From: Ignavibacteria bacterium
GTDB lineage: Bacteria; Bacteroidota; Ignavibacteria; Tepidaquicellales; OLB5
Direction of reading: 5' to 3'
Assembly: GCA_030835085.1 (NCBI GenBank)
Contig: JAUQWQ010000150.1
Coordinates: 1 to 60,175, forward strand
DNA length: 60,175 nt
The position numbers were made by a program, and so were the translations under genes. This document shows positions 19,907-36,848 of this stretch, one piece after another. How positions within the stretch are numbered: the stretch's first letter is position 1; every line of letters starts with the position of its first letter. The notes under the pieces are model-generated. The model saw only the letters and a list, made by a program, of their open reading frames with translations. It was not told the origin of the DNA and searched no databases.

Positions 19907-22537
19907 ATGAAAAATAAATATACAGTATTTATAGTTTTTCTTTTGTTAACATCAGTATTGGTATTTTACTTTGTTTCCGGAAATTTCAAAACCAAAGAAA
20001 TAACAGTTGACGAAAACGGCAAACGCTTTCCGGCAGCAGAAAAAAAGGATCCCAACAGGCCTTCGGGCGTAATGGAATCAATGCAGCTGATGAGCCAGAT
20101 CAGGTCATTCCCGGATAATGACATTCCGCAGGATAAATTTTTTGCCGGGTATGAGCACTCCAAAACCATTCCAAGTTATGACGCTGTTCATGATTCACCA
20201 ACGCAGTGGCAGTCAATCGGACCCAATAACATCGGCGGGCGCAGCCTGTGTATGGCTTTCAGTCCGGTTGATACAGCAACATTATTTATGGGCTCAGCTT
20301 CCGGTGGATTGTGGAAATCTGTTACAGGCGGACTTGGCGCAAGCGCCTGGACAATGATAGAAACAGGGTATCCATCACTTGCGGTAAGCTCGATCGCTAT
20401 TGATTCTGCGAACCCGCAGACAATGTATATTGGCACCGGTGAAAGTTACGGGTACCAGTATTCGTTTAACGGCTTGGATATCCGTGTTACACGCGGCATG
20501 TACGGCATCGGGATATTAAAAACTACCAATGGCGGAACCTCATGGGTTAAATCACTTGACTGGTCATACAATAACCAGCGGGGGGTGTGGAGTGTAATAC
20601 TCAATCCAAAAAACAGGAATACTGTATACGCAGCGACTACTGAGGGTGTATGGAAATCAATTAATGCCGGCACTACATGGTTCCAGGTGCTTAATCACCA
20701 GATGGCGATGGATATGGAAATAAACCCGGCAGATACAAGTGTGCTTTATGTATCAATTGGTAACTTAACCAACAACGTACCCAATGCGAATGTAGGTATT
20801 TACAAAACTACCAATGCAGGCACATCATGGGTTAAATTAACAGGAGGTTTACCTGCATCATGGACCGGGAAAACAACTATTGAACTTTATAAGGGTAACC
20901 CTGATCTTGTATACGCAAGTGTCGCTAATGATCTATCATATGTGGGATATTATACCAGCACAAATGCGGGACTATCGTGGACCCTGAGAACCACCGGGGT
21001 TGGTATAGGCAACCAGGGGTGGTTCAACAATGCGCATTTGGTAAAAGCCAACGATCCCAACCAGATAGTAGTGGGCACAATTGATTTGGTTAAATCAATT
21101 AACGGCGGCTCAAATTTTACAACAAAATCAAACTGGTCTGCGTGGAATACCGGGGCAACTCCTCCGGGTCAGCCGGAGAGCTCCTCAAGTAATTTCGCGC
21201 ATGCAGATCATCATTATTTTATTTCAAATCCGTTAGACCCGAATAAACTTTACTGCATTACCGATGGCGGGCTGTACCGCTCAAATGACTTCGGGGAGAC
21301 ATATTATTCATGCAACGGCGGTTACGTTACATCACAATTTTACGCAAGCTTCGCAAACTCAATGCAGGATTCCATTTTCTGCCTTGGCGGCCTGCAGGAT
21401 AACCGCTCAGCGTTTTACCAGGGTACAACTGCATGGTATAAAACATTTGTAGGCGACGGATTCACATGTGCCATCAATTCACAGAATGATAATATCTGCT
21501 ATACTGAATATTCCTACGGAGATATATACCGCTCAGGTAACAGGGGAGTAAGCTGGTCAAACATCGGACCCCCGGGAGCAGGGAACGCATCTAACTACTG
21601 CTTTGCAGCACCGTTCATTTCAACGCGCGCAAATCCGAACATACTTTATGTTGGCGGAACGAATCTGTATAAATCTACGACAGGCAGCGGCTCATGGGTA
21701 AGCGTTGGTATACTCGGCGCTAAAGCGCTTTCAATGGATGCCTCGGCAACATCAAGCGATACGGTTTATATAGGGACCATTCCTGTTATTAACAGCCAGG
21801 ATGCAAAAATATATAAGCTAACCGGAAATACTTTAACAGATGTATCAAACGGGCAGATACCGAACCGGTACCCGACGGATATTCATGTTAATCCTAATAA
21901 CTCAATGGTTGTGTACGCAACCTTTGGTGGATTCGGCACAGGTCACGTTTACCGCACAACAAACGGCGGCTCTAGCTGGCAGAATATTTCAGGAAACCTG
22001 CCGGATATTCCGCACCAGACAGTATGCATTGACCCGCTTTACCAGCAGAATATATACGTTGGCAACGATCTTGGCGTTTATGTAAGTACAAATGCAGGTG
22101 CAAACTGGTTTACGTTTGCAACTGGAATGCCGTATGCATTGGTATTCGATCTGACAGTTGTTAACACAAGCCGCAACATAAGGGCAACAACGCACGGAAA
22201 TGGAATTTACGAAAGAGATCTTATCCAGAATCCTGTAGGTATTACTCCGATTGGCAGCGAAATACCGAAACAATTTTCTCTTTCGCAGAATTACCCAAAT
22301 CCGTTTAATCCGTCAACAAAAATAAAATTTGATATAAGCGGTAAATCAGTAGCACAGACATTCCTGTCTGTGTATGATATTCAGGGTAAGCTAATAGCAA
22401 CACTTGTCGATAAACAACTTAAACCCGGAAGTTATGAAATTTCATTTGACGCATCGGGAATATCGAGTGGTGTTTACTTTTACAGTATAAATGCCGGAGA
22501 TTTTACTGATACGAAGAAGATGATTCTATTGAAATAG
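19907..22537 (+). CDS. Secreted beta-propeller protein with T9SS sorting domain
   Basis: An 876-residue secreted protein. It has an N-terminal membrane/signal segment (VFIVFLLLTSVLVFYFVSG). A central part (about 95-780) carries at least seven Asp-box-like motifs of sialidase/Vps10/BNR propellers, for example TNGGTSWV, NAGTTWF, TNAGTSWV, NAGLSW, GNRGVSW, TNGGSSW and NAGANWF. The C-terminal T9SS type A domain (about 795-876) begins FSLSQNYPNPFNPSTKIKF and ends TDTKKMILLK. Propellers of this type bind or hydrolyse glycans, or only serve as scaffolds, and no catalytic residue can be named. The sorting domain contains an odd AQTFLSV insertion encoded by a palindrome (see findings). It is monocistronic, with a terminator at 22562. 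Confidence 0.85.
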   Translation: MKNKYTVFIVFLLLTSVLVFYFVSGNFKTKEITVDENGKRFPAAEKKDPNRPSGVMESMQLMSQIRSFPDNDIPQDKFFAGYEHSKTIPSYDAVHDSPTQWQSIGPNNIGGRSLCMAFSPVDTATLFMGSASGGLWKSVTGGLGASAWTMIETGYPSLAVSSIAIDSANPQTMYIGTGESYGYQYSFNGLDIRVTRGMYGIGILKTTNGGTSWVKSLDWSYNNQRGVWSVILNPKNRNTVYAATTEGVWKSINAGTTWFQVLNHQMAMDMEINPADTSVLYVSIGNLTNNVPNANVGIYKTTNAGTSWVKLTGGLPASWTGKTTIELYKGNPDLVYASVANDLSYVGYYTSTNAGLSWTLRTTGVGIGNQGWFNNAHLVKANDPNQIVVGTIDLVKSINGGSNFTTKSNWSAWNTGATPPGQPESSSSNFAHADHHYFISNPLDPNKLYCITDGGLYRSNDFGETYYSCNGGYVTSQFYASFANSMQDSIFCLGGLQDNRSAFYQGTTAWYKTFVGDGFTCAINSQNDNICYTEYSYGDIYRSGNRGVSWSNIGPPGAGNASNYCFAAPFISTRANPNILYVGGTNLYKSTTGSGSWVSVGILGAKALSMDASATSSDTVYIGTIPVINSQDAKIYKLTGNTLTDVSNGQIPNRYPTDIHVNPNNSMVVYATFGGFGTGHVYRTTNGGSSWQNISGNLPDIPHQTVCIDPLYQQNIYVGNDLGVYVSTNAGANWFTFATGMPYALVFDLTVVNTSRNIRATTHGNGIYERDLIQNPVGITPIGSEIPKQFSLSQNYPNPFNPSTKIKFDISGKSVAQTFLSVYDIQGKLIATLVDKQLKPGSYEISFDASGISSGVYFYSINAGDFTDTKKMILLK
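22314..22436 (+). repeat. T9SS sorting-domain DNA repeat, copy 1
   Basis: Bases 22314-22422 are identical to 24123-24231 (109 bases), and the match continues for 15 more with one mismatch. The repeat includes a palindrome ACAGACATTCCTGTCTGT read as QTFLSV. A second shared block covers the gene end and terminator (22520-22587). Confidence 0.9.
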
Positions 22538-22561
22538 TGTAATATTTTATTTTTTTATTCA

Positions 22562-22588
22562 GGCGATCTGCAATGGTCGCCTTTTTTT
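22562..22588 (+). terminator. Terminator of the propeller gene
   Basis: GGCGA (22562-22566) and TCGCC (22577-22581) form a stem followed by seven T. The identical hairpin recurs at 24371. Confidence 0.8.
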
Positions 22589-22885
22589 GTGACCCAAATC
22601 ATTGTTCTGCCTTAATTGCTGTATTATATTTGTATTGAACCCGATAATTGCCAAAAGATGCTTATAAATACCCGAGCCTTGATGCTGAAATATAACGTAA
22701 AGATATCATAAAATTTATTTAATCAAAGATTATTTGTAAAACGAATTTTTATTAAAAAATAGTCATGTTAATCGTTTAATCCGGTTAATCAAGGTTCTGC
22801 TTTAATATTGCAAAAAGCCTAAAAGTGTATTATTTTAGAAAATATACTTACTGGAATCCTTCTGTAAATGTTACATAAAGAAAAT
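22589..22885. other. AT-rich intergenic stretch
   Basis: No gene, repeat or RNA is recognised. A TATATTTG box (22625-22632) fits the -7 consensus but lies about 250 bases before the next start. Confidence 0.4.
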
Positions 22886-24346
22886 ATGACATTAAATAAA
22901 CAAAATATTCTGAAAACTAATAAAATTCTGATTATTGTTATATTCAGTTTATTTATTGCTATTTGTACCTACAGCCAGCCTCTAACATGGCAAAGAATTC
23001 TAAATAATGATTTCGGCGGTGTAAGCAAAGTTTTGCAAACCAACGACGGTGGGTTTGCCGCAATTGGAAGCACCAGATTAAATAATGAATATAAAATTAA
23101 TCTTACAAAATTAGATAAGTATGGTAATATTTTATGGGTAAAGATATACGGAATTGGATATGCAAATGCAAGGTGGGCTGAGATAACAAACGATAATGGA
23201 TTTAATATAGGTGGATATTCAGATTCAGCAGTAGGGAATTCAAAGGTTTTTTTAGTCAAAACTGATTCTTCAGGAAACATTCAATGGCAAAGATATTATT
23301 CATTCAGTAGTCTGGATCAGGGTAATTGTGTAAAGCAAACAATTGATAACGGATTTATTTTAGTTGGGCGTACCACGCTTTTTAGTTATAGCAGTATAAT
23401 ATTGATTAAAGTTGATAATGTCGGCAATGTACAGTGGAATAAAATAATGAATTTTGGCGTTGGTGTATCAATCCAAGAATTGCTAATATTAGAACAAGGA
23501 TATTTATTAGCCGGTTGGATTAATAATAATCCATCAGATATATTAATTATTAAAACAAATAATGTTGGAGATACAATATGGAGTAAAGTTTTTGGGGGTA
23601 CAAATACTGATGCAGCTTATTCGTCAGAAACATTAGGAAATTTTGGGTATTTAATCGGAGGTTATTCTAGTTCATATAATACTCACAGTGAGTCATATTT
23701 GCTTAAATTAGATACTTCCGGAAATTTGATTTGGCAAAAAACGTATAGTGGTGTTTATTCTGAGGAGTGTTCAGGAGTAAAATATAAGCCAGGTTTAGGA
23801 TATATTCTAGCTGGCTCAGCAGATACCGCAAATTTTTTATATACCAGAGCATTGATCAAAATAGTAGATACAAATGGAGTCCTGATAAAACAGGTTACAT
23901 TTTTCCCTGCCGATAGAGGAGGTTGGTTTAATGATTTGGAATTAGCCAATGATGGAGGATATATACTTGGTGGTACTGCAAACGTCAATTCTGCAAGTAA
24001 TATGTATGTTGCAAAAACAGACTCCTTGCTTCATGCTGAGCCAATCGGTATTTCTGTAATTACTCAGAATATACCTGAAGAATTTTCAATTTCACAAAAT
24101 TACCCTAATCCTTTCAACCCGGCAACAAAAATAAAATTTGATATAAGCGGTAAATCAGTAGCACAGACATTCCTGTCTGTGTATGATATTCAGGGTAAGC
24201 TAATAGCAACACTTGTCGATAAACAACTTAAGCCCGGAAGTTATGAGGTAACATATGAATCTTCGGGACTTTCGAGCGGTGTATATTTTTACAGAATAAA
24301 TGCCGGAGATTTTACTGATACTAAAATAATGATTCTATTGAAATAG
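22886..24346 (+). CDS. Secreted repeat protein with T9SS sorting domain
   Basis: A 486-residue protein from the ATG at 22886, chosen because it places the signal segment (ILIIVIFSLFIAICTYSQ) near the N-terminus. The body (about 40-400) contains about seven degenerate repeats of the delta-60 kind, each with LxKLDxxGNxxWxKxYGG and NDGGFxxxG elements, predicted to form a beta-propeller-like fold. The C-terminal T9SS domain starts FSISQNYPNPFNPATKIKF. The DNA of the sorting domain is nearly identical to that of the preceding gene, whereas the body is distinct and more AT-rich. This suggests cassette-like sharing of the sorting domain. The secreted role is unknown. Confidence 0.8.
   Translation: MTLNKQNILKTNKILIIVIFSLFIAICTYSQPLTWQRILNNDFGGVSKVLQTNDGGFAAIGSTRLNNEYKINLTKLDKYGNILWVKIYGIGYANARWAEITNDNGFNIGGYSDSAVGNSKVFLVKTDSSGNIQWQRYYSFSSLDQGNCVKQTIDNGFILVGRTTLFSYSSIILIKVDNVGNVQWNKIMNFGVGVSIQELLILEQGYLLAGWINNNPSDILIIKTNNVGDTIWSKVFGGTNTDAAYSSETLGNFGYLIGGYSSSYNTHSESYLLKLDTSGNLIWQKTYSGVYSEECSGVKYKPGLGYILAGSADTANFLYTRALIKIVDTNGVLIKQVTFFPADRGGWFNDLELANDGGYILGGTANVNSASNMYVAKTDSLLHAEPIGISVITQNIPEEFSISQNYPNPFNPATKIKFDISGKSVAQTFLSVYDIQGKLIATLVDKQLKPGSYEVTYESSGLSSGVYFYRINAGDFTDTKIMILLK
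24123..24245 (+). repeat. T9SS sorting-domain DNA repeat, copy 2
   Basis: Identical over 109 bases to 22314-22422, with the match continuing to 24246 with one mismatch. The shared block includes the ACAGACATTCCTGTCTGT palindrome. Confidence 0.9.
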
Positions 24347-26433: not shown

Positions 26434-27540
26434 ATGAAGAAAATCGGAATATTGTTTGGCCAGGAAAATACTTTCCCCCAGGCTTTTATAGACAGGGTGA
26501 ACTATAAAGCAAGGGAAATGAACCTGGATATTTCCGCTGAGTTTGTACAGATAGATAAAGTAATACAGGGGGAGCCGTTAAAATATCATGTTATTATAGA
26601 TAGAATTTCTCAGGATGTACCATTTTACCGTGCATTTTTAAAAAATGCAGCATCAAGCGGAACCGCTGTAATTAATAATCCATTCTGGTGGAGCGCTGAT
26701 GAAAAATTCTTTAATAACGCTTTAATGACAAAGATAGGCGTACCTGTTCCAAAAACAGTTATTCTGCCTTCAAACCAGTTACCAACCGATACAACTCATA
26801 ACTCGTTCCGTAATTTAACTTTCCCTTTGGATTGGGAAGGCATATTCAGCTACATTGGTTTCCCCGCATACTTTAAACCGCATGCCGGAGGCGGATGGAA
26901 AAGTGTATACAAAGTAACGAACATTGATGAATTTTTTAAAGCATATAACGAGACCGAGCAGCTTGTTATGATGCTGCAGGAAGAAATTCAGTTTGATGAA
27001 TATTACCGCTGCTACTGCCTGGATAGGCAGGATGTTTGGGTAATGCCGTATGAACCAAGAAATCCGCATCACTTAAGATATTTAAAGGATACAACCGTTG
27101 CACCTGAAAAGAATAAAATGCTTACTGATGTTGTATTAAAAATTAACCGCGCGCTGGGGTATGATTTCAATACAGTTGAGCTTGCTTTAAGAGATGGCAT
27201 TCCTTATGCTATCGATTTCTGCAACCCCGCCCCGGATGCTGATGTTCATTCAGTTGGCGAAGCCAACTTTGAGTGGATCGTTGAAGCAGCCGCTAACATG
27301 GCTATCCGCCGTGCAATGGAGCACAGGGAAGGGCTGAATAATTTAACATGGGGTGATTTTATATATTCATCAGCTAACAATGAACCGCTTGTTGAAGGCG
27401 CATATGACGCTTCAGTAAAAAAAAAGCCCAAAAGTAAATTAGGCACAAAGAAATCAGCAAAGAAAGCATCGGCTGGCGATAGTGATGCAGAGAGCGTAGT
27501 TAAAGCTGAAAAAAAAAGTAAAAAGATTAAGGCTGCGTAA
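26434..27540 (+). CDS. ATP-grasp domain protein with Lys/Ala-rich tail
   Basis: A 368-residue soluble protein. Residues about 95-300 show the ATP-grasp fold: KIGVPVPKTVILP, the glycine-rich loop FKPHAGGGWKSVYKV (148-161), MLQEEIQFDEY (180-190) for adenine and hinge, and the metal-binding end NTVELALRDGIPYAIDFCNP (246-265). ATP-grasp enzymes join a carboxylate to an amine or thiol through an acyl phosphate. No RimK, CPSase or biotin carboxylase subtype could be named. The last 40 residues are Lys/Ala/Ser-rich (for example KKPKSKLGTKKSAKKAS), unusual for this fold. It is the first gene of the 26-32 kb cluster, separated from the rest by a 425-base repeat-rich gap. Confidence 0.85.
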   Translation: MKKIGILFGQENTFPQAFIDRVNYKAREMNLDISAEFVQIDKVIQGEPLKYHVIIDRISQDVPFYRAFLKNAASSGTAVINNPFWWSADEKFFNNALMTKIGVPVPKTVILPSNQLPTDTTHNSFRNLTFPLDWEGIFSYIGFPAYFKPHAGGGWKSVYKVTNIDEFFKAYNETEQLVMMLQEEIQFDEYYRCYCLDRQDVWVMPYEPRNPHHLRYLKDTTVAPEKNKMLTDVVLKINRALGYDFNTVELALRDGIPYAIDFCNPAPDADVHSVGEANFEWIVEAAANMAIRRAMEHREGLNNLTWGDFIYSSANNEPLVEGAYDASVKKKPKSKLGTKKSAKKASAGDSDAESVVKAEKKSKKIKAA

Positions 27541-27965
27541 AAATATTTAAAACAAAGCCTGCCTAGAGTTTTCACACATTGCCCCCCTCTCCTTGTAGGA
27601 TAGGGGCTGGGGGGTGAGGTGATAATAAAACAAAAGTCAGTTCGTAATTCGCCGCGGTGAACTGGAGCCATGTATCTTGTGGAGTCGGGACTTACGTCCC
27701 TACACGATTAGAGTATGGCTGCAAATAATTGACCTCACCCCCATCACGCCTTCGGCGTGATTTCCCCCTCTCCAAAGGAGAGGGGAGAGGCGACAACTAA
27801 GGCGTCAGTTTCCGCAGAGTTTCTTACATGAGACTCCGCGTAGACCGGGTAAGTTTTTCACACATTGCCCCTCTACAAAAGGGAGGGGAAGTTAGAATAG
27901 AATATGACTATATATTGCATTATTAATCTTTAATATATAGATTGTAATTCAACATTATAAAAACT
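27541..27965. repeat. Repeat-rich gap within the amide-ligase cluster
   Basis: No gene is seen. The gap is a patchwork of repeat units. Two direct copies of TTTTCACACATTGCCCC lie near 27569-27585 and 27855-27871. Segments of GGGG/CCCC-rich palindromic repeat occur, including CACGCCTTCGGCGTG (27747-27761), CCCTCTCCAAAGGAGAGGGG (27767-27786) and GGGACTTACGTCCC (27687-27700). A CGCAGAG...GAGACTCCGCG element (about 27813-27841) resembles those at 76-114 and 368-406. Confidence 0.75.
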
Positions 27966-29075
27966 ATGGATAAGCATATTTTTACACTAGGTATTGAAGA
28001 AGAGTTCATGCTGGTTGATCCTGAAACCAGGGGACTTGTATCGCACATGCAGCAAATTGTCGACTCAGGTAAAGTACTGTTAAAAGAGCAGATTAAGCCT
28101 GAAATGCACGCTTCGGTTGTGGAAGTAGGTACCAAAATATGCCGGGATATCCATGAGGCGCGGGATGAAGTGACCGGGCTGCGCTCGAATCTTGCTGCGC
28201 TTGCAAAAGAGGCGGGATTCAGAATTGCAGCTGCGGGAACACATCCTTTCACACACTGGAATGAAGTTACAATTACCGATCACCCGCGTTACCATGAAAT
28301 TGTAAAAGAAATGCAGGAAGCCGCACGTGCGAACCTGATATTCGGTCTTCATGTACATGTTGGTTTACCAAACCGTGAGGTCGGAATACAGATAATGAAC
28401 GCAGTGAGATATTTTATTCCTCACATATTCGCGCTTTCAACAAATTCACCATTCTGGCTGGGACGCAACACCGGATTTAAATCATACCGCGTAAAAGTTT
28501 TTGATAAATTCCCGAGAACCGGTATACCTGATTATTACGATACAGTTACTGAGTTCGATAACTATGTAAATCTGTTGATCAAAACCAATTGTATTGATAA
28601 CGGAAAGAAGATATGGTACGATATAAGGCTTCATCCGTACTTTAATACACTCGAGTTCCGTATGTGTGATATTCCGATGCGTGTTGATGAAACAATATGT
28701 CTTGCAGCACTAATGCAGGCTGTAGTTGTGAAGCTTTACAAGTTAATGAGGCAGAATTTAGGATTCAGAATTTACCGCCGTGCGCTGATAAATGAAAACA
28801 AATGGCGTGCAGCCAGGTACGGCACCGAAGGCAAGCTTATTGATTTCGGCAAGCAGGAAGAAGTTGATTTCAAAATTCTTGCTATGGAGCTCATTTCATT
28901 TATAAGCGATGTGGTTGATGATCTTGGCAGCTGGGAAGATGTTAACTACATTCTGCAGATGCTCCAGAACGGAACCGGTGCTGACAGACAGCTTGCAGTT
29001 TGGGACGGTACCCAGGAAGGCCTGAAGAAGGTAGTTGATTTTATAATAGAAGAAACGCACATTGGTTTAAAATAA
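27966..29075 (+). CDS. YbdK/GCS2-type carboxylate-amine ligase
   Basis: A 369-residue member of the glutamate-cysteine ligase 2 / YbdK family. The N-terminal motif FTLGIEEEFMLVDPETRGL (6-24) carries the acidic metal ligands. AGTHPF, HVHVGLPNRE (about 135-144), LSTNSPFWLGRNTGFKSYR and RLHPYFNTLEFRMCDIPMR are the family landmarks for nucleotide and substrate binding. These enzymes couple ATP hydrolysis to gamma-glutamyl-type or other carboxylate-amine bonds, and YbdK itself has weak glutamate-cysteine ligase activity. It is on the same strand as an aminopeptidase 37 bases downstream and two ATP-grasp proteins, which suggests a peptide-like product rather than glutathione. Confidence 0.9.
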   Translation: MDKHIFTLGIEEEFMLVDPETRGLVSHMQQIVDSGKVLLKEQIKPEMHASVVEVGTKICRDIHEARDEVTGLRSNLAALAKEAGFRIAAAGTHPFTHWNEVTITDHPRYHEIVKEMQEAARANLIFGLHVHVGLPNREVGIQIMNAVRYFIPHIFALSTNSPFWLGRNTGFKSYRVKVFDKFPRTGIPDYYDTVTEFDNYVNLLIKTNCIDNGKKIWYDIRLHPYFNTLEFRMCDIPMRVDETICLAALMQAVVVKLYKLMRQNLGFRIYRRALINENKWRAARYGTEGKLIDFGKQEEVDFKILAMELISFISDVVDDLGSWEDVNYILQMLQNGTGADRQLAVWDGTQEGLKKVVDFIIEETHIGLK

Positions 29076-29112
29076 ATAGAATTAATAAAACATAAATAAT
29101 ATATTTTACTTA

Positions 29113-30132
29113 ATGAACGAGACACATACAGTTATTGATTTTGATAAAGAGCTTTCCAAAGGCGCATATAATGCAATTGTAGTTTGTTTAAGGTTAAAGC
29201 CTGAAGAAAGAATAACCATCATCACCGATAATGAATCCCTTGAAATAGCATCATCACTTGTTGCGGAAGTAAAAAAAGTAGGCTCTGAGTGCAGCCTGAT
29301 GGTAATAGAAGATTATGCTTCAAGGCCGCTTAAGAACATGCCGCAGCAGATACTTGATGACCTTGCAAAAAGCCGGGTAAGCATTTTCTGTGCAATAGCA
29401 CATACGGGCGAGCTTCGCTCAAGGATCGATATGACGGAAGTTGTTGATAAGCATAAGATCCGCCACGGGCATATGGTAAACATCAATAAGCAGATAATGC
29501 TTGAAGGTATGTGCGCGGATTTCATTAAAGTAGATGAGCTTTCGCAAAAGCTTATTGATAAGGCGCGCAAAGCTAAAACGATAACTGTTAAAAATGCAGC
29601 AGGCACAGATATGGTTGCTGATTTTTCAACTTCACTTAAATGGCTTAAAACAAGCGGAATAATTTCAGTGGAAAAATGGGGCAATCTGCCGGGCGGCGAA
29701 ATATTCACTTCACCTTATAATGTAAACGGAGTTTTTGTTGTAGATGGCGTAGTTGGCGACTATCTTTGCCAGAAATACGGCGACCTGAAAAAAACCCCGC
29801 TTTCAATATGGATAAAAGACTCCCGCATAACAAAAATGGAGTGTATTAACAAAGAGCTTCTGGAAGAATTTACGGCATACACTATGACCGATGAGAACAG
29901 TAACCGCGTTGGTGAATTTGCCATTGGCACCAATATTGCCTGCAAACATGTTATAGGTCACATTTTACAGGATGAAAAGCTGCCGACAGTGCACATAGCA
30001 TTCGGGCATCCGTATTCGGCTCACACGGGGGCTGACTGGCAGTCAACAACGCATATTGATTGCGTAAGTGTAGAATGCAGTATCTGGCTTGATGATGAGC
30101 AGGTAATGGATAACGGAAAATTCCTGATCTAA
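29113..30132 (+). CDS. M29-type metalloaminopeptidase
   Basis: A 339-residue protein with the thermophilic aminopeptidase (M29) pattern. Metal ligands are visible: E196 in GNLPGGEIFTSP, E268 in RVGEFAIGTN, H294 in VHIAFG, and H314 with D316 in THIDCV. The catalytic tyrosine is probably Y301 in HPYSAH. It is predicted to be cytoplasmic, lacking a signal peptide, and to remove N-terminal residues from peptides. Next to a YbdK-type ligase and two ATP-grasp proteins, it may trim or recycle the product of those ligases. It is 37 bases after YbdK and 28 before the lipoprotein pair. Confidence 0.85.
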   Translation: MNETHTVIDFDKELSKGAYNAIVVCLRLKPEERITIITDNESLEIASSLVAEVKKVGSECSLMVIEDYASRPLKNMPQQILDDLAKSRVSIFCAIAHTGELRSRIDMTEVVDKHKIRHGHMVNINKQIMLEGMCADFIKVDELSQKLIDKARKAKTITVKNAAGTDMVADFSTSLKWLKTSGIISVEKWGNLPGGEIFTSPYNVNGVFVVDGVVGDYLCQKYGDLKKTPLSIWIKDSRITKMECINKELLEEFTAYTMTDENSNRVGEFAIGTNIACKHVIGHILQDEKLPTVHIAFGHPYSAHTGADWQSTTHIDCVSVECSIWLDDEQVMDNGKFLI

Positions 30133-30160
30133 TATGCTGTATTAATGCCATACTATAAAA

Positions 30161-30580
30161 ATGAAAATAATTCTTAATATCTTTTTTATTTTATCAGCTG
30201 CTGTTTTTTGCCTGAACGGATGTACAGAAGATGATACATCAACAGGAAACAACAATACACCGGTAAACCAGGTACCAAATAAACCAAAGTCTCCTTATCC
30301 TGCCGATAGTTCTGAAAATATTGATACAAGTGTTATAATGGTCCTATCCTGGCAATGCTCTGACCCGGACCCGAATGATACATTAAAATATGACGTATAT
30401 ATAAGCAATAGTTTGCCTGTTGGCAATACACCAATTGTAACTGATCTTTACAATCCTTCATACGGATTGGGAATAGTTGCGCCAAGTACCAGCTATTTCT
30501 GGAAAGTTGTTGCAAGGGATAATAAAGGCGGTTCTGCAACCAGCAATACCTGGCGTTTTAAAACACAAATACGGCAATAA
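30161..30580 (+). CDS. Small predicted lipoprotein with Fn3-like domain
   Basis: A 139-residue protein with a lipoprotein signal (MKIILNIFFILSAAVFCLNGC). After a Thr/Asn-rich linker, residues about 45-137 resemble a fibronectin type III-like beta-sandwich: LSWQCSDPDPNDTLKYDVYI, then YFWKVVARDNKGG and WRFKTQ. It is highly similar to the next gene's product, a tandem duplication. Both are lipid-anchored outside the inner membrane. Position between the M29 peptidase and an ATP-grasp-like protein suggests an envelope-side role in the same system, but no function is known. Confidence 0.75.
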   Translation: MKIILNIFFILSAAVFCLNGCTEDDTSTGNNNTPVNQVPNKPKSPYPADSSENIDTSVIMVLSWQCSDPDPNDTLKYDVYISNSLPVGNTPIVTDLYNPSYGLGIVAPSTSYFWKVVARDNKGGSATSNTWRFKTQIRQ

Positions 30581-30656
30581 AGATACATTATTCAATATTC
30601 TGTTCCAATTAATTTAATATATTTAAAAACTAAAACAGTGTATTATACACAAAAAA

Positions 30657-31073
30657 ATGAAACGCTATATCATTTGCTTAATTATAAGCACAGCCCTGTT
30701 TTTAAGTCTTAACGGTTGCAAAAAAGATGATACATCTGTAAACAACGGCATCACCAACACTCCGCCCACAACACCGGTAAACCCGGTACCTGCAGATAAC
30801 TCAACAGGAATTGATGACAGTTCAGCGGTAAATCTTTCCTGGGAAAGCACTGACCCTGACCTGAATGACACATTGAAATTTGATTTATTTGTCGGAACAA
30901 GCCTTCCTTTAAGCGATATACCCCTGGCTGCAAATCTGACTCAACCGGCTTACAACATGGGTGTATTGACTTTTCCGGGAACTACATTTTACTGGCAGGT
31001 AAAAGCAAAAGACAGATATGGAGCATCATCAACCGGGGATGTCTGGAGATTTACAATAAGAACGAGACCATAA
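30657..31073 (+). CDS. Small predicted lipoprotein, tandem paralogue
   Basis: A 138-residue protein with a lipobox (LSLNGC). It shares with the preceding protein the linker and the Fn3-like stretch (LSWESTDPDLNDTLKFDLFV, then FYWQVKAKDRYGASSTGDVW). A 76-base AT-rich gap separates the two genes, and the next gene begins 16 bases after this stop. Kept as a pair, they may bind the same ligand or form a dimer. Function unknown. Confidence 0.75.
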   Translation: MKRYIICLIISTALFLSLNGCKKDDTSVNNGITNTPPTTPVNPVPADNSTGIDDSSAVNLSWESTDPDLNDTLKFDLFVGTSLPLSDIPLAANLTQPAYNMGVLTFPGTTFYWQVKAKDRYGASSTGDVWRFTIRTRP

Positions 31074-31089
31074 ACTCAAAATATATTAT

Positions 31090-32277
31090 TTGGTACCTGA
31101 GATAAGAAAAAAATACAACGCGGAATTCACACAGGAAAAGTATGAGGCTTTTGTTAAAGCCCTTAATACTACATATGACTTTCCAATTGAATTCCGCATT
31201 GCTGAGACACCTGTTTTTATAGGTAAGGAATTCAAGAACGAGATACTGAATGCTGTTGATGTGATAACTTCATATCTCATGAGTCCGGAATATCAAAAGA
31301 TATCCATGGGCGCTATACCTGAAGGTATGGCAGTACCAAATGACCCCGGTTATCCCGCAATGATGGCTATTGATTTTGCCATATGCAAAGATGAGGACGG
31401 TAAATTCATTCCCAAGCTTATTGAACTGCAGGGATTTTCCTCGCTGTTTTTTTATGAGCTGCTGCAGAATTATATGTTCCGCAAACATTTCATTATTGAC
31501 GAACGTTACGGCGGACTTTTCAATATACATAAACCCGATGAATATCTGGATATCCTGAAACGGGTAGTAATAGGCGATTCGAATCCAGAAAATGTTATAC
31601 TGCTTGAAATTGAACCCGACAACCAGAAAACCAGAATAGATTTTGAGTGCTGTTATACTTACATTGGCGTTAAGCCTGTTTGCCTGAGTGATATTACAAA
31701 AGAAGGCAAAGACCTTTACTATATGAATAACGGCAAAAAAACAAAGATAGAGCGTATATATAACAGAGTAATATTTGATGAGCTTGAAAGAAGAAAAGAC
31801 CTGAAATTTAATTTCAGCTTTCAGGATGAACTGAACGTTACATGGGTTCCCCATCCAAACTGGTTCTACAGGATAAGCAAATACTCGCTTCCTTTCCTTA
31901 AGAATAAATACGTCCCTGAAACAAAATTCCTGAGTGATATCGAAACATATCCCGCTGACCTGGAAAACTACGTGCTGAAGCCGCTTTTCAGCTTCGCAGG
32001 TGTTGGTGTAGTGTTTGATGTCACAAAAGAGATACTTGATAGTATTACTGACCGCACGAATTATATTCTGCAGAAGAAAATCAATTATGAGCCGGTGATT
32101 GAAACTCCCGACCAGCCCGCAAAAGCGGAGCTTAGATTATTGTTTGTGCATGATAACGGTAAGCCGTATTTGGTTAATAATCTGGTTAGACTTAGCAAAG
32201 GCAAGATGATGGGCGTTGATTTCAATAAGGAAAAAACGTGGGTAGGGTCGAGTCTGGCTTATTTTGAGCATTTGTGA
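31090..32277 (+). CDS. ATP-grasp-like protein (possibly circularly permuted type)
   Basis: A 395-residue soluble protein starting at TTG. The N-terminal half contains AMMAIDFAICKDEDGKFIPK, then LIELQGFSS (about 90-118), which resembles the metal-binding and E/Q-N signature of circularly permuted ATP-grasp and glutathionylspermidine-synthase-like enzymes. The C-terminal half has YVLKPLFSFAGVGVVFDV (294-311), a glycine-rich ATP-binding stretch, then NYILQKKINYEP and AELRLLFVHDNGKPYLVNNL. The overall assignment to ATP-grasp is a judgement from these motifs, not a database hit. It closes the 26-32 kb ligase cluster; a 254-base gap with a repeat follows. Confidence 0.6.
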   Translation: MVPEIRKKYNAEFTQEKYEAFVKALNTTYDFPIEFRIAETPVFIGKEFKNEILNAVDVITSYLMSPEYQKISMGAIPEGMAVPNDPGYPAMMAIDFAICKDEDGKFIPKLIELQGFSSLFFYELLQNYMFRKHFIIDERYGGLFNIHKPDEYLDILKRVVIGDSNPENVILLEIEPDNQKTRIDFECCYTYIGVKPVCLSDITKEGKDLYYMNNGKKTKIERIYNRVIFDELERRKDLKFNFSFQDELNVTWVPHPNWFYRISKYSLPFLKNKYVPETKFLSDIETYPADLENYVLKPLFSFAGVGVVFDVTKEILDSITDRTNYILQKKINYEPVIETPDQPAKAELRLLFVHDNGKPYLVNNLVRLSKGKMMGVDFNKEKTWVGSSLAYFEHL

Positions 32278-33286: not shown

Positions 33287-34279
33287 TTGAAGAATATTTT
33301 AGTAACCGGGGGCGCCGGTTTTATTGGAACGAACTTTGTCTATTATATTACAGGCAAAGGTCATAAAGTTACCGTATTAGATAAGCTTACTTACGCCGGC
33401 GGAAAAGATAACCTCGAGCCTCTTATAGCCGAAGGAAAGGTTAATTTTATTCACGGTGATATTTGCGATGAAGATATTGTTAAAAAAGCAGTAAGCGGCT
33501 GTGATTCAGTGATACATTTTGCCGCAGAAAGCCATAACACCCGCAGCGAAACCGACCCTGATCTTTTCTACCGCACAAATGTTACGGGAACAAAAGTAAT
33601 GCTTGAAAAAGCATTTGAAAAGGGCGTGGATAAGTTCATTCACATATCCACCGATGAAGTTTACGGCTCAATTGCCGATGGTTACTTTGCTGAAGGCGAT
33701 AAAAAACTTGGCGATAGCCAGGCAACATCAGCATATTCAAAATCAAAATCACAGGCAGATGACCTTGCGATGGAGTTCGGCAGGAACTATCCTGTAGTTG
33801 TTTTAAGGCCCACAAATAATTTCGGTCCATGGCAGTACCCTGAAAAAGCATTGCCAAGGTGGATATCAAATATACTGCTCGGCAGTAAAATTCCGTTATG
33901 GGGCGAAGGTCTGCAGGTAAGGGACTGGCTGTACGCTCCGCTGACAGCGGAGTGTCTTGAATTCCTGCTGGAAAAAGGTGAAGCAGGCAATGCATATAAT
34001 GTAGCTGCTAACCATAACCCGGAAATTACCAATAAAATGGCTGCAGAATGGCTGTGCGAAATACTTAATGTAAGCAAGGATGATTTCATTGAGTACATCC
34101 CTGACCCCAGGCCAAACCATGATTTCCGCTACGCACTTAATGTTGATAAGATCACAAACCTTGGCTTTAAACCAAAAATTGATCCGTTCAACCAGTTCAA
34201 ATCCACGGTTGAGTGGTATGAACAGAACGAAGCCTGGTGGAAAAAACGTAAAGAAGAAGCAGAAAGTATATACAAATAG
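33287..34279 (+). CDS. rmlB: dTDP-glucose 4,6-dehydratase-like SDR enzyme
   Basis: A 330-residue extended SDR enzyme starting at TTG with an AAGGA ribosome binding site. The NAD motif GGAGFIG is at residues 7-13. The catalytic S/T-D-E region reads ISTDEVYGS, and the YxxxK motif is AYSKSKSQAD. NNFGPWQYPEKALPRWI and the GEGLQVRDWLY substrate loop match dTDP-glucose 4,6-dehydratases. The expected reaction is dTDP-glucose to dTDP-4-keto-6-deoxyglucose, but a related 4,6-dehydratase or epimerase cannot be excluded. RmlA, RmlC and RmlD are not in the window. It heads a run of three sugar-nucleotide enzymes. Confidence 0.8.
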   Translation: MKNILVTGGAGFIGTNFVYYITGKGHKVTVLDKLTYAGGKDNLEPLIAEGKVNFIHGDICDEDIVKKAVSGCDSVIHFAAESHNTRSETDPDLFYRTNVTGTKVMLEKAFEKGVDKFIHISTDEVYGSIADGYFAEGDKKLGDSQATSAYSKSKSQADDLAMEFGRNYPVVVLRPTNNFGPWQYPEKALPRWISNILLGSKIPLWGEGLQVRDWLYAPLTAECLEFLLEKGEAGNAYNVAANHNPEITNKMAAEWLCEILNVSKDDFIEYIPDPRPNHDFRYALNVDKITNLGFKPKIDPFNQFKSTVEWYEQNEAWWKKRKEEAESIYK

Positions 34280-34354
34280 CATCAGTTATATTTATTAAAA
34301 TTTTAATTTCACTAGTACACTACCAAGAAATCACTATCAAGGGGAAAATAATTA

Positions 34355-35692
34355 ATGAGTGAAGTATTAAGAGAAAAAATTAAACAAAAAAAAGCGAAGA
34401 TCGGTATTATCGGACTGGGATACGTCGGGTTGCCGCTTGCTATTGAATTTGCAAGAAAAGGTTTTAATGTACACGGAGTTGACCTGGACCAGAATAAAAT
34501 TAAAATGATCCAGCAGAAGAAGAATTATATCAAAGATGTTATCAATAAAGATTTCCTTTATGCTATCAATAATAATCTTTTTACAGCATCAAATACCTAT
34601 GATAAAATAGGTGACCAGGAGATCATTTTTATCTGCGTGCCAACTCCTGTTACGGATAATAAAACCCCGGATATTTCTTTTATAATGGATTCTACTGAGG
34701 AAATATTCAAAAGGATGAAAAGGCATACTCTTATCATTTTAAAGAGCACAACGTTCCCCGGAACGACGGAAGATTACGTTCAGCCGCTGCTTGAATCAAA
34801 GGGATGGAAAGTTGGTAAGGATTATTACCTCTCGTTTTCACCTGAGCGTGTTGACCCGGGCAATAAAGTATATAACACCGGCAATACACCAATAGTAGTA
34901 GGCGGTGTTACCAAAAAATGCCAGGAACTTTCCGTGATGATAATGCAGGAAGTGGCAACAAAGGTTCACCAGGTTTCATCACCGCGTGCTGCTGAAATGG
35001 AGAAGCTGCTTGAAAATATCTTCCGCAGTGTGAATATTGCGCTTGTTAACGAACTGGCAAGGCTTTGCGACAGGATGGGAAATGTAAATATATGGGAAGT
35101 TATTGATGCAGCGGCTACCAAACCTTTCGGTTATATGCCGTTCTACCCCGGACCCGGGATCGGCGGACACTGCATACAAATTGACCCGTATTACCTTGAT
35201 TGGGCTGCCAAGCAGTATGATTTCCATACAAACTTTGTAGAGCTTGCCGCTGAATCGAACGAAGAAATGCCGTTCTATGTAAGAGATATGGTAATGAGAG
35301 AAATTGCCAATGCGCCTGTAAAGGCAAGTGAAGCAAATGTGCTGATACTCGGCACAACGTTCAAACGTGATGTTGAAGACCCGCGTAACTCACCGGCTAT
35401 AAAAGTAATTGAGCTGCTATACAAAGAAGGCATACAGAACATTAATTTCCATGACCCGTATATGAGAAATATACGTTTGATGGATAAAATATTCCGCGTG
35501 CAGGAGCTTAACGAAAAGCTGCTTAAGGATGCTGATGTAACGGTAATAGTTACAGACCACACGACATATGATTATGAATGGATCGTTGCGTTTTCTAAAC
35601 GTATAGTTGATACACGTAATGCTACCAAGAAGCTTAAGCTTAACAGGGAAAAGATATCCCTGCTTGGTGCAAATACATTCAAGATCAGCTAG
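34355..35692 (+). CDS. UDP-N-acetylglucosamine/mannosamine 6-dehydrogenase (WbpA/WecC family)
   Basis: A 445-residue nucleotide-sugar dehydrogenase. The Rossmann motif is GLGYVGLPLAIEFARKG. The stretches FICVPTP, SPERVDPGN, the PGPGIGGHCIQIDPYYLDW block with the catalytic cysteine, and the GTTFKRDVEDPRNSPA domain match the WbpA-like branch (UDP-GlcNAc to UDP-GlcNAcA) somewhat better than WecC. It is 11 bases before the epimerase at 35703. With that epimerase the product could be UDP-ManNAcA or a related acidic amino sugar for O-antigen or capsule. Confidence 0.8.
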   Translation: MSEVLREKIKQKKAKIGIIGLGYVGLPLAIEFARKGFNVHGVDLDQNKIKMIQQKKNYIKDVINKDFLYAINNNLFTASNTYDKIGDQEIIFICVPTPVTDNKTPDISFIMDSTEEIFKRMKRHTLIILKSTTFPGTTEDYVQPLLESKGWKVGKDYYLSFSPERVDPGNKVYNTGNTPIVVGGVTKKCQELSVMIMQEVATKVHQVSSPRAAEMEKLLENIFRSVNIALVNELARLCDRMGNVNIWEVIDAAATKPFGYMPFYPGPGIGGHCIQIDPYYLDWAAKQYDFHTNFVELAAESNEEMPFYVRDMVMREIANAPVKASEANVLILGTTFKRDVEDPRNSPAIKVIELLYKEGIQNINFHDPYMRNIRLMDKIFRVQELNEKLLKDADVTVIVTDHTTYDYEWIVAFSKRIVDTRNATKKLKLNREKISLLGANTFKIS

Positions 35693-35702
35693 TTTATATA
35701 TA

Positions 35703-36848
35703 TTGAGCAAAAAGAAAAAGATAATTTCAGTTGTAGGGGCAAGACCAAATTTTATGAAACTTGCCCCTATTGAACTGGAGCTTACGAAATACAAAAACCT
35801 TTTCACACATTTAATAGTACATACCGGTCAGCATTATGACCACAGGCTTTCAAAGGTTTTTTTTAAAGACCTTAATTTACCCCAACCCGATATATTCCTT
35901 GGAGCGGGTTCAGGCTCTCACGCTGAGCAAACTGCGCGCATAATGGTTGAGTTTGAAAAGGTAGTTGTTAAGGAGATGCCCGATCTGGTGATAGTGTTTG
36001 GCGATGTAAATTCCACAATAGCCTGCGCGCTTGTTTGCGCAAAAGTACATAAGCACGGTGAGGCAATACCTGTTGCTCATGTTGAAGCAGGGCTGAGAAG
36101 TTTTGATATCACCATGCCTGAGGAAATAAACCGTATCATTACCGATTCACTTTCCGATATGCTTTTTATCACTGAACCGGAAGGTGTGAAGAATTTGCTT
36201 AAAGAAGGCATAAACAAAAAGAAAATCCATCTGGTTGGTGATACTATGATAGATTCTCTTGTTTATTTCAGGAAAAAATTCAGCACATCAGGTATCCTGA
36301 AAAAGGTAAAGCTCAAAAAAGGCAGGTATATTCTTTCCACTATACACAGGCCGGTGAATGTTGATAACAAAGAAAATCTAGGGAGAATAATTTCAATTTT
36401 CAGGAAAGTTTCTTTAAAAGCTTTAAGTTATGACCCGGAAATTAAAATAGTACTTCCGATCCACCCCCGCACTTTAAAAATGGCGGAAAACTTTTCTCTG
36501 CTTGAAAAATTGAGAAGTATACCCGGGCTGCTCACAATTGAACCCGCAGGTTATACAGATTTTATCAAGCTTCTAACCGATTCGAAACTGGTAATTACCG
36601 ATTCGGGCGGAATACAGGAAGAAGCAACTTTTTTGAAAATTCCCTGTTTAACTTTAAGAGACTCATTTGAACGACCCGAAACTCTGAGTATTGGCTCTAA
36701 TACTTTATGCGGTCTGAATGAAGCCTTGATTGATAAAAAGATAGTTGAAATATTCACAGGAAAATACAAAAAAGGGAAAATTCCCCGTTTAATGGATGGT
36801 AAAGCCTCCAAAAGAATAGTAAATGCCATAAAAACCCGCCTGTTGTAA
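35703..36848 (+). CDS. wecB: UDP-N-acetylglucosamine 2-epimerase
   Basis: A 381-residue non-hydrolysing epimerase from the TTG at 35703. A longer frame starting at 35607 overlaps the preceding gene and is rejected, because ISVVGARPNFMKLAPI should follow the start closely. Other landmarks are HTGQHYD, VFGDVNST, HVEAGLRSFD, MPEEINRI, HPRT and TDSGGIQEEA, all typical of WecB. It is co-transcribed with the dehydrogenase upstream. Together they probably feed an acidic N-acetylmannosamine-type sugar into a surface polysaccharide. A WbpI-like subtype is the alternative. Confidence 0.88.
   Translation: MSKKKKIISVVGARPNFMKLAPIELELTKYKNLFTHLIVHTGQHYDHRLSKVFFKDLNLPQPDIFLGAGSGSHAEQTARIMVEFEKVVVKEMPDLVIVFGDVNSTIACALVCAKVHKHGEAIPVAHVEAGLRSFDITMPEEINRIITDSLSDMLFITEPEGVKNLLKEGINKKKIHLVGDTMIDSLVYFRKKFSTSGILKKVKLKKGRYILSTIHRPVNVDNKENLGRIISIFRKVSLKALSYDPEIKIVLPIHPRTLKMAENFSLLEKLRSIPGLLTIEPAGYTDFIKLLTDSKLVITDSGGIQEEATFLKIPCLTLRDSFERPETLSIGSNTLCGLNEALIDKKIVEIFTGKYKKGKIPRLMDGKASKRIVNAIKTRLL

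Follow-up and report, generated by a model that had tools for sequence, protein, structure and literature searches.

The window analysed here is a 60,175-nt stretch of DNA from an Ignavibacteria bacterium (assembly GCA_030835085.1, contig JAUQWQ010000150.1), in which positions 26434–32277 carry three ligase genes (ATPg1, GCS2 and ATPg2), a hydrolase gene (M29) and two lipoprotein genes (Lp1 and Lp2). The ligases and the hydrolase form a conserved gene set that probably specifies a cytoplasmic pathway to a small peptide-like amide; the lipoproteins are optional accessory insertions outside this set. Six open reading frames were confirmed, all on the + strand:

ATPg1, 26434–27540, + strand: RimK/LysX/ArgX-type ATP-grasp ligase
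GCS2, 27966–29075, + strand: YbdK-type carboxylate-amine ligase, PRK13515 subfamily
M29, 29113–30132, + strand: M29-type metallopeptidase, short form, 339 aa; the operon's hydrolase in the window's lineage
Lp1, 30161–30580, + strand: Fn3/Ig-like lipoprotein, accessory
Lp2, 30657–31073, + strand: paralogue of Lp1, accessory
ATPg2, 31090–32277, + strand: divergent ligase with, by its model, the YgiC/glutathionylspermidine synthetase/eukaryotic glutathione synthetase fold (permuted ATP-grasp)

The last five genes are separated by gaps of 37, 28, 76 and 16 bases, in agreement with the initial annotation, which had described six same-strand genes with gaps of 16–76 bases among the last five; 425 bases lie between ATPg1 and GCS2. 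A search for RNA elements gave no Rfam match in this 425-base gap or elsewhere, and a simple hydropathy test predicted no signal-like segments on the core enzymes.

GCS2 matches the NCBIfam model NF010039 (PRK13515) with 531.6 bits, far above the cut-off of 371, and the Pfam GCS2 model with an E-value of 1.5e-62, which upholds its earlier assignment as a YbdK/GCS2 ligase. A tandem pair of GCS2 genes lies near ATPg2 in a Spartobacteria genome (L190:6509–8873).

The first gene had been called an ATP-grasp protein, and the AlphaFold2 model of ATPg1 (predicted local distance difference test score, pLDDT, 82) is indeed nearest to RimK (VIA Z 20.1), followed by LysX/ArgX (19) and Ddl (18). The NCBIfam model rimK_fam (TIGR00768) is matched with an E-value of 4.6e-6 and 26.2 bits, under its cut-off of 143.4. 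Residues K148, E249, D261 and N264 are invariant, and median identity across distant lineages is 67%. Conservation covers residues 1–316; residues 317–368 form a variable K/A-rich tail of ~50 residues, which is longest in the window's genus and whose last 36 residues have pLDDT below 50 and no conservation. In two genomes of one family, the gene immediately after ATPg1 encodes an aromatic amino acid ammonia-lyase (PF00221, E about 1e-196; L089:5948–7483 and L103:5971–7476).

The modelled fold of ATPg2

ATPg2 has no Pfam or NCBIfam match, and the Pfam GSP_synth model gives none at E-values up to 1. Searches of solved structures by sequence alone returned nothing useful for either the single ATPg2 sequence or ATPg1. 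The AlphaFold2 model of ATPg2, built from 43 sequences, has a mean pLDDT of 93.3 and a predicted template modelling score of 0.91. Compared with known structures using Foldseek and VIA-align, it matches YgiC (Z 25.8), the glutathionylspermidine synthetase Gss (24.4) and human GSS (23.8) over 341–363 residues, and also YjfC and the fungal Cp1B (VIA Z 22.5). The permuted ATP-grasp fold extends over the whole length of the protein (Z 22–26 over 328–366 of 395 residues); ordinary ATP-grasps reach Z ≤8 over ~190 residues. Sequence identity to the fold relatives is 10–14%.

An ATPg2 profile reaches YgiC weakly (E 0.0096), with a match that spans both ATP-binding lysines. In Gss, we take K498 and K533 to bind ATP, D318, E330 and N332 to be the metal ligands, and R316 and R538 to be the Gss arginines. 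ATPg2 residues K264 and K297, which correspond to K498 and K533, are invariant, as are D95 and E112, which motif matching pairs with D318 and E330. By its modelled fold, ATPg2 represents a divergent family related to YgiC, Gss and glutathione synthetase, and we do not class it as a member of Gss or YgiC. The same model bears out the weakest call of the initial annotation, that the protein encoded from 31090 is a second ATP-grasp; all three ligases belong to families that form amide bonds, as had been proposed.

Sodium symporters adjoin ATPg2 in two loci. In L192:4579–7182, a single open frame of 867 aa encodes first a sodium:solute symporter domain (PF00474) and then ATPg2, which is either a real fusion or a stop codon lost in assembly. 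In L072:8286–9620, a sodium:alanine symporter gene begins 13 bases after ATPg2, which might point to a substrate taken up from outside.

Conservation of the gene set and exchange of the hydrolase

Absence of a conserved neighbourhood had been set beforehand as a refutation test; the order ATPg1–GCS2–M29–ATPg2 is kept in about 20 Ignavibacteria neighbourhoods, most of the Ignavibacteria examined. The second such test, whether the 31090 protein would prove not to be ATP-grasp, likewise went the way of the initial interpretation. Among 99 relatives, ATPg1 is present in 46 and ATPg2 in 46 (one a fragment), with both in 44. At least 592 relatives of ATPg2 were confirmed in genome contigs, and the best 80 of these come from Ignavibacteria, Chitinophagaceae, Cytophagales, Saprospiraceae, Flavobacteriaceae, Cloacimonadota and Verrucomicrobiota; the breadth outside Bacteroidota is drawn solely from this search.

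In the 198 genomes surveyed across the phylum, each pairing of the three ligases co-occurs at p no higher than about 1e-32 (Fisher), although these counts ignore phylogeny and the p-values overstate independence. ATPg1 and ATPg2 are found together in 58 genomes, ATPg1 alone in 14, ATPg2 alone in 2 and neither in 124 (p 7e-34). For ATPg2 and GCS2, 56 genomes carry both, 4 only ATPg2, 5 only GCS2 and 133 neither (p 2e-38). Some co-occurring genomes carry the ligase genes at separate places, so that co-occurrence is not just a by-product of linkage. Shared inheritance also fits the correlated pairwise distances between the proteins (r 0.78–0.88 against a permuted maximum of 0.33), although the correlation arises partly because the genomes share a species tree. 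Gaps in the compact operons run from about −4 to 60 bp, and the median gaps are 53–78 bp for hydrolase–ATPg2, −1 bp for GCS2–ATPg2 and 33 bp for ATPg1–GCS2.

The M29 protein matches Pfam Peptidase_M29 (6e-17; 62 bits, gathering score 27). Its five metal ligands (E196, E268, H294, H314 and D316), described as intact in the initial annotation, are invariant in 14 loci together with Y301. In Bacteroidia, a class-I glutamine amidotransferase-like protein (GATase) with an intact triad (C107/H209/E211) fills the place of M29 before ATPg2. Across 121 loci, this slot holds M29 in 24 cases, GATase in 45 and both in none; of the 43 relatives whose genomes encode the complete ligase trio, M29 is present in 29, GATase in 4 and the two together in none. 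Parsimony on the ATPg2 tree, which comes from a quick search and has several weak forks, gives at least four switches between the two. In 6 loci of two families, the gene for a further hydrolase, Amidohydro_3, overlaps ATPg2 or lies directly next to it; elsewhere Amidohydro_3 is found together with GATase. An esterase gene lies upstream of ATPg1 in 16 loci. Because unrelated amide hydrolases repeatedly replace each other at the same place, there is good evidence to suggest that the pathway includes amide hydrolysis. The commonest minimum looks like ATPg1, an amide hydrolase and a glutathione-synthetase-like or permuted ligase.

The lipoproteins do not share this conservation. Both Lp1 and Lp2 carry the lipobox LNGC, in keeping with their earlier description; Lp1 matches fn3 below the cut-off (E 0.018) and Lp2 has no Pfam or NCBIfam match. 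Related lipoproteins occupy the same slot only in L067, L068, L070, L076, L077 and L112. Of these, L077 has one lipoprotein, and there is none in L078, which belongs to the window's genus, or in L113. We therefore rejected the lipoproteins as pathway members, since they vary within the genus. Between the lipoprotein and ATPg2 genes of L070 lies an orphan 347-aa gene without a Pfam match (L070:8992–10035).

Beyond the locus, the neighbouring polysaccharide genes at 33287–36848 were considered as pathway members and rejected; across the loci inspected, linkage of the first such gene is confined to the family of the window. Two large secreted-looking proteins encoded at 19907–24346 of the window share a C-terminal motif (SQNYPNPFNP...) like that of type IX secretion cargo.

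Proposed pathway, alternatives and known systems

We consider it probable that ATPg1, GCS2, the hydrolase and ATPg2 constitute a cytoplasmic pathway, independent of nonribosomal peptide synthetases (NRPS), to a small glutamyl-type peptide or pseudopeptide amide, coupled with hydrolysis. A small intracellular product is favoured because the set contains three amide-forming ligases and a linked hydrolase, with no predicted signal segments, no precursor gene in the operon and no conserved acceptor. We infer the substrates, the order of steps and the role of the hydrolase as follows. GCS2 would join a carboxylate, probably glutamate via its γ-carboxyl, to an amine, and the RimK/LysX-like ATPg1 would add a further amino acid. 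In the manner of glutathione synthetase or of YgiC and YjfC, the peptide-spermidine ligases, ATPg2 would then activate the carboxylate of the peptide as an acyl phosphate and couple the last amine, an amino acid or a polyamine. The amide hydrolase from the slot ahead of ATPg2, which is M29 in the window and in most Bacteroidia a cysteine hydrolase resembling class-I amidotransferases, may cleave one bond, either removing a protecting glutamyl group or recycling the product. The model agrees with the published general view that linked amidoligases catalyse successive peptide ligations (PMC4431377). Of the initial interpretation, the multi-ligase and hydrolase set and the amide-forming families are supported, and the core enzymes lack predicted export signals, as suits the cytoplasmic setting that it proposed. 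The role that it gave to the lipoproteins is not supported, as they differ between members of the genus and almost every other locus lacks them.

Several observations weigh against this pathway. The gene set is not rigid, given that in one family four genomes lack GCS2 but retain ATPg1, GATase and ATPg2, and that genomes without ATPg2 have a type-2 circularly permuted ATP-grasp beside ATPg1. About one-third of the core genomes in the phylum sample carry neither this M29 nor this GATase. By motif matching, the Asn metal ligand of Gss is replaced in ATPg2 by an invariant Q114, and Gss R316 and R538 are missing from the family (no Arg at 93, Phe at 302); with these substitutions, the chemistry of ATPg2 may differ from that of Gss. 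In other families, ATPg1 and the type-2 permuted ATP-grasp are accompanied by an esterase and GATase, and some of these have GCS2 at another place. In L194:6955–8370 and L195:6932–8287, the permuted protein lies between ATPg1 and GATase, where GCS2 or ATPg2 would be expected.

The ligases might instead act on a protein, with ATPg1 and GCS2 attaching amino acids to a side chain or tail, ATPg2 capping this tag and M29 or GATase taking it off. Such modification or tagging is in line with the pairing of ligases with a hydrolase and with the fold of ATPg1, whose nearest match, RimK, adds glutamate to a ribosomal protein. We regard it as unlikely, as clustering of neighbouring open reading frames of ≥90 aa in or beside the operon revealed no conserved small acceptor family, and the gaps within the compact operons span only about −4 to 60 bp; an acceptor might be encoded elsewhere. 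Somewhat less likely still is amine processing with a glutamyl protecting group, a scheme known from the Puu putrescine pathway: GCS2 would glutamylate an amine, further steps would follow, and the hydrolase would then take off the glutamate, with ATPg1 and ATPg2 only assisting. GATase has the class-I fold of PuuD, and the upstream esterase, the Amidohydro_3 that precedes ATPg2 in 6 loci and the two symporters would suit this scheme. The neighbour clusters, however, contain no oxidase, aminotransferase or dehydrogenase conserved with the set, and hence no reaction that calls for a protected amine.

More improbable again is a pathway to a low-molecular-weight thiol like glutathione or bacillithiol, even though GCS2 and ATPg2 share their folds with the pair of enzymes that make glutathione. 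BshC, the last bacillithiol enzyme, is encoded in 196 of the 198 genomes, including that of the window, with or without the operon, and the conserved neighbours of the set include no family of thiol-handling enzymes; a role as main thiol or bacillithiol substitute is therefore unlikely, since there is no thiol gap to fill. Flanks that vary between lineages and the optional lipoproteins are what a chance neighbourhood of unrelated enzymes would give, but this reading, to which we attach almost no probability, is already contradicted for the four core genes by their co-occurrence over the phylum, conserved order and overlapping genes. A graspetide or other ribosomally synthesized and post-translationally modified peptide was rejected, as the compact operons have no room for a precursor gene (medians of −1 bp for GCS2–ATPg2 and 33 bp for ATPg1–GCS2); a precursor elsewhere was not sought.

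About 30% of the high-quality genomes sampled from the phylum carry the operon set, which points to a common metabolite that the literature searched does not name. Tentatively, this metabolite could be a γ-glutamyl pseudopeptide, perhaps a peptidyl-polyamine, kept widely in Bacteroidota, Cloacimonadota and some Verrucomicrobiota and made by three ligases, one of a new glutathione-synthetase-fold family, with unrelated hydrolases that replace each other. The product could be sought directly in the cultured hosts Niastella, Larkinella and Longitalea. Linked amidoligases as a general idea are already published; our literature search found no description of the four-gene set, the ATPg2 fold or the M29/GATase exchange, although Iyer et al. 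2009 may list related neighbourhoods. ATPg2 would add to the glutathione synthetase fold a family that has no Pfam or NCBIfam model.

RimK, LysX and ArgX have the fold and architecture of ATPg1 (Z 19–20), but ATPg1 falls far under the RimK subfamily cut-off (26 versus 143 bits) and its operon lacks a LysW- or S6-like acceptor. The glutathione pathway uses a GCS2-type glutamate-cysteine ligase and eukaryotic glutathione synthetase, the same two enzyme folds that are encoded together here; the window's set differs in its additional RimK-like ligase and hydrolase, and in hosts that already carry BshC. Predicted linked-amidoligase operons, reportedly read in Iyer et al. 2009 (cited in PMC4431377) as successive peptide or metabolite ligation, combine ATP-grasp, GCS2-type and other ligases, as does the window's set. 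Escherichia coli YgiC, YjfC and Gss share with ATPg2 the full-length fold (Z 24–26), the two ATP-binding lysines and, going by motif matching, probably two of the three metal ligands. They are set apart from ATPg2 by the low identity (10–14%), the lack of a family-model match, the Asn-to-Gln change and the replacement of Gss Arg316 and Arg538, and by the operon that ATPg2 forms with GCS2 and a RimK-like ligase. In Gss the ligase is likewise paired with an amidase, whereas the hydrolase here is a separate gene of another fold. PMC12568646 cites YgiC and YjfC as peptide-spermidine ligases and places the fungal enzyme Cp1B, which has the same fold, in an NRPS-free pathway. In that E-64 pathway the partners of Cp1B are an ANL amide synthetase and an oxygenase, compared with GCS2 and RimK-like ligases for ATPg2, and the fold of ATPg2 (Z 22.5) is used there in NRPS-independent pseudopeptide synthesis.

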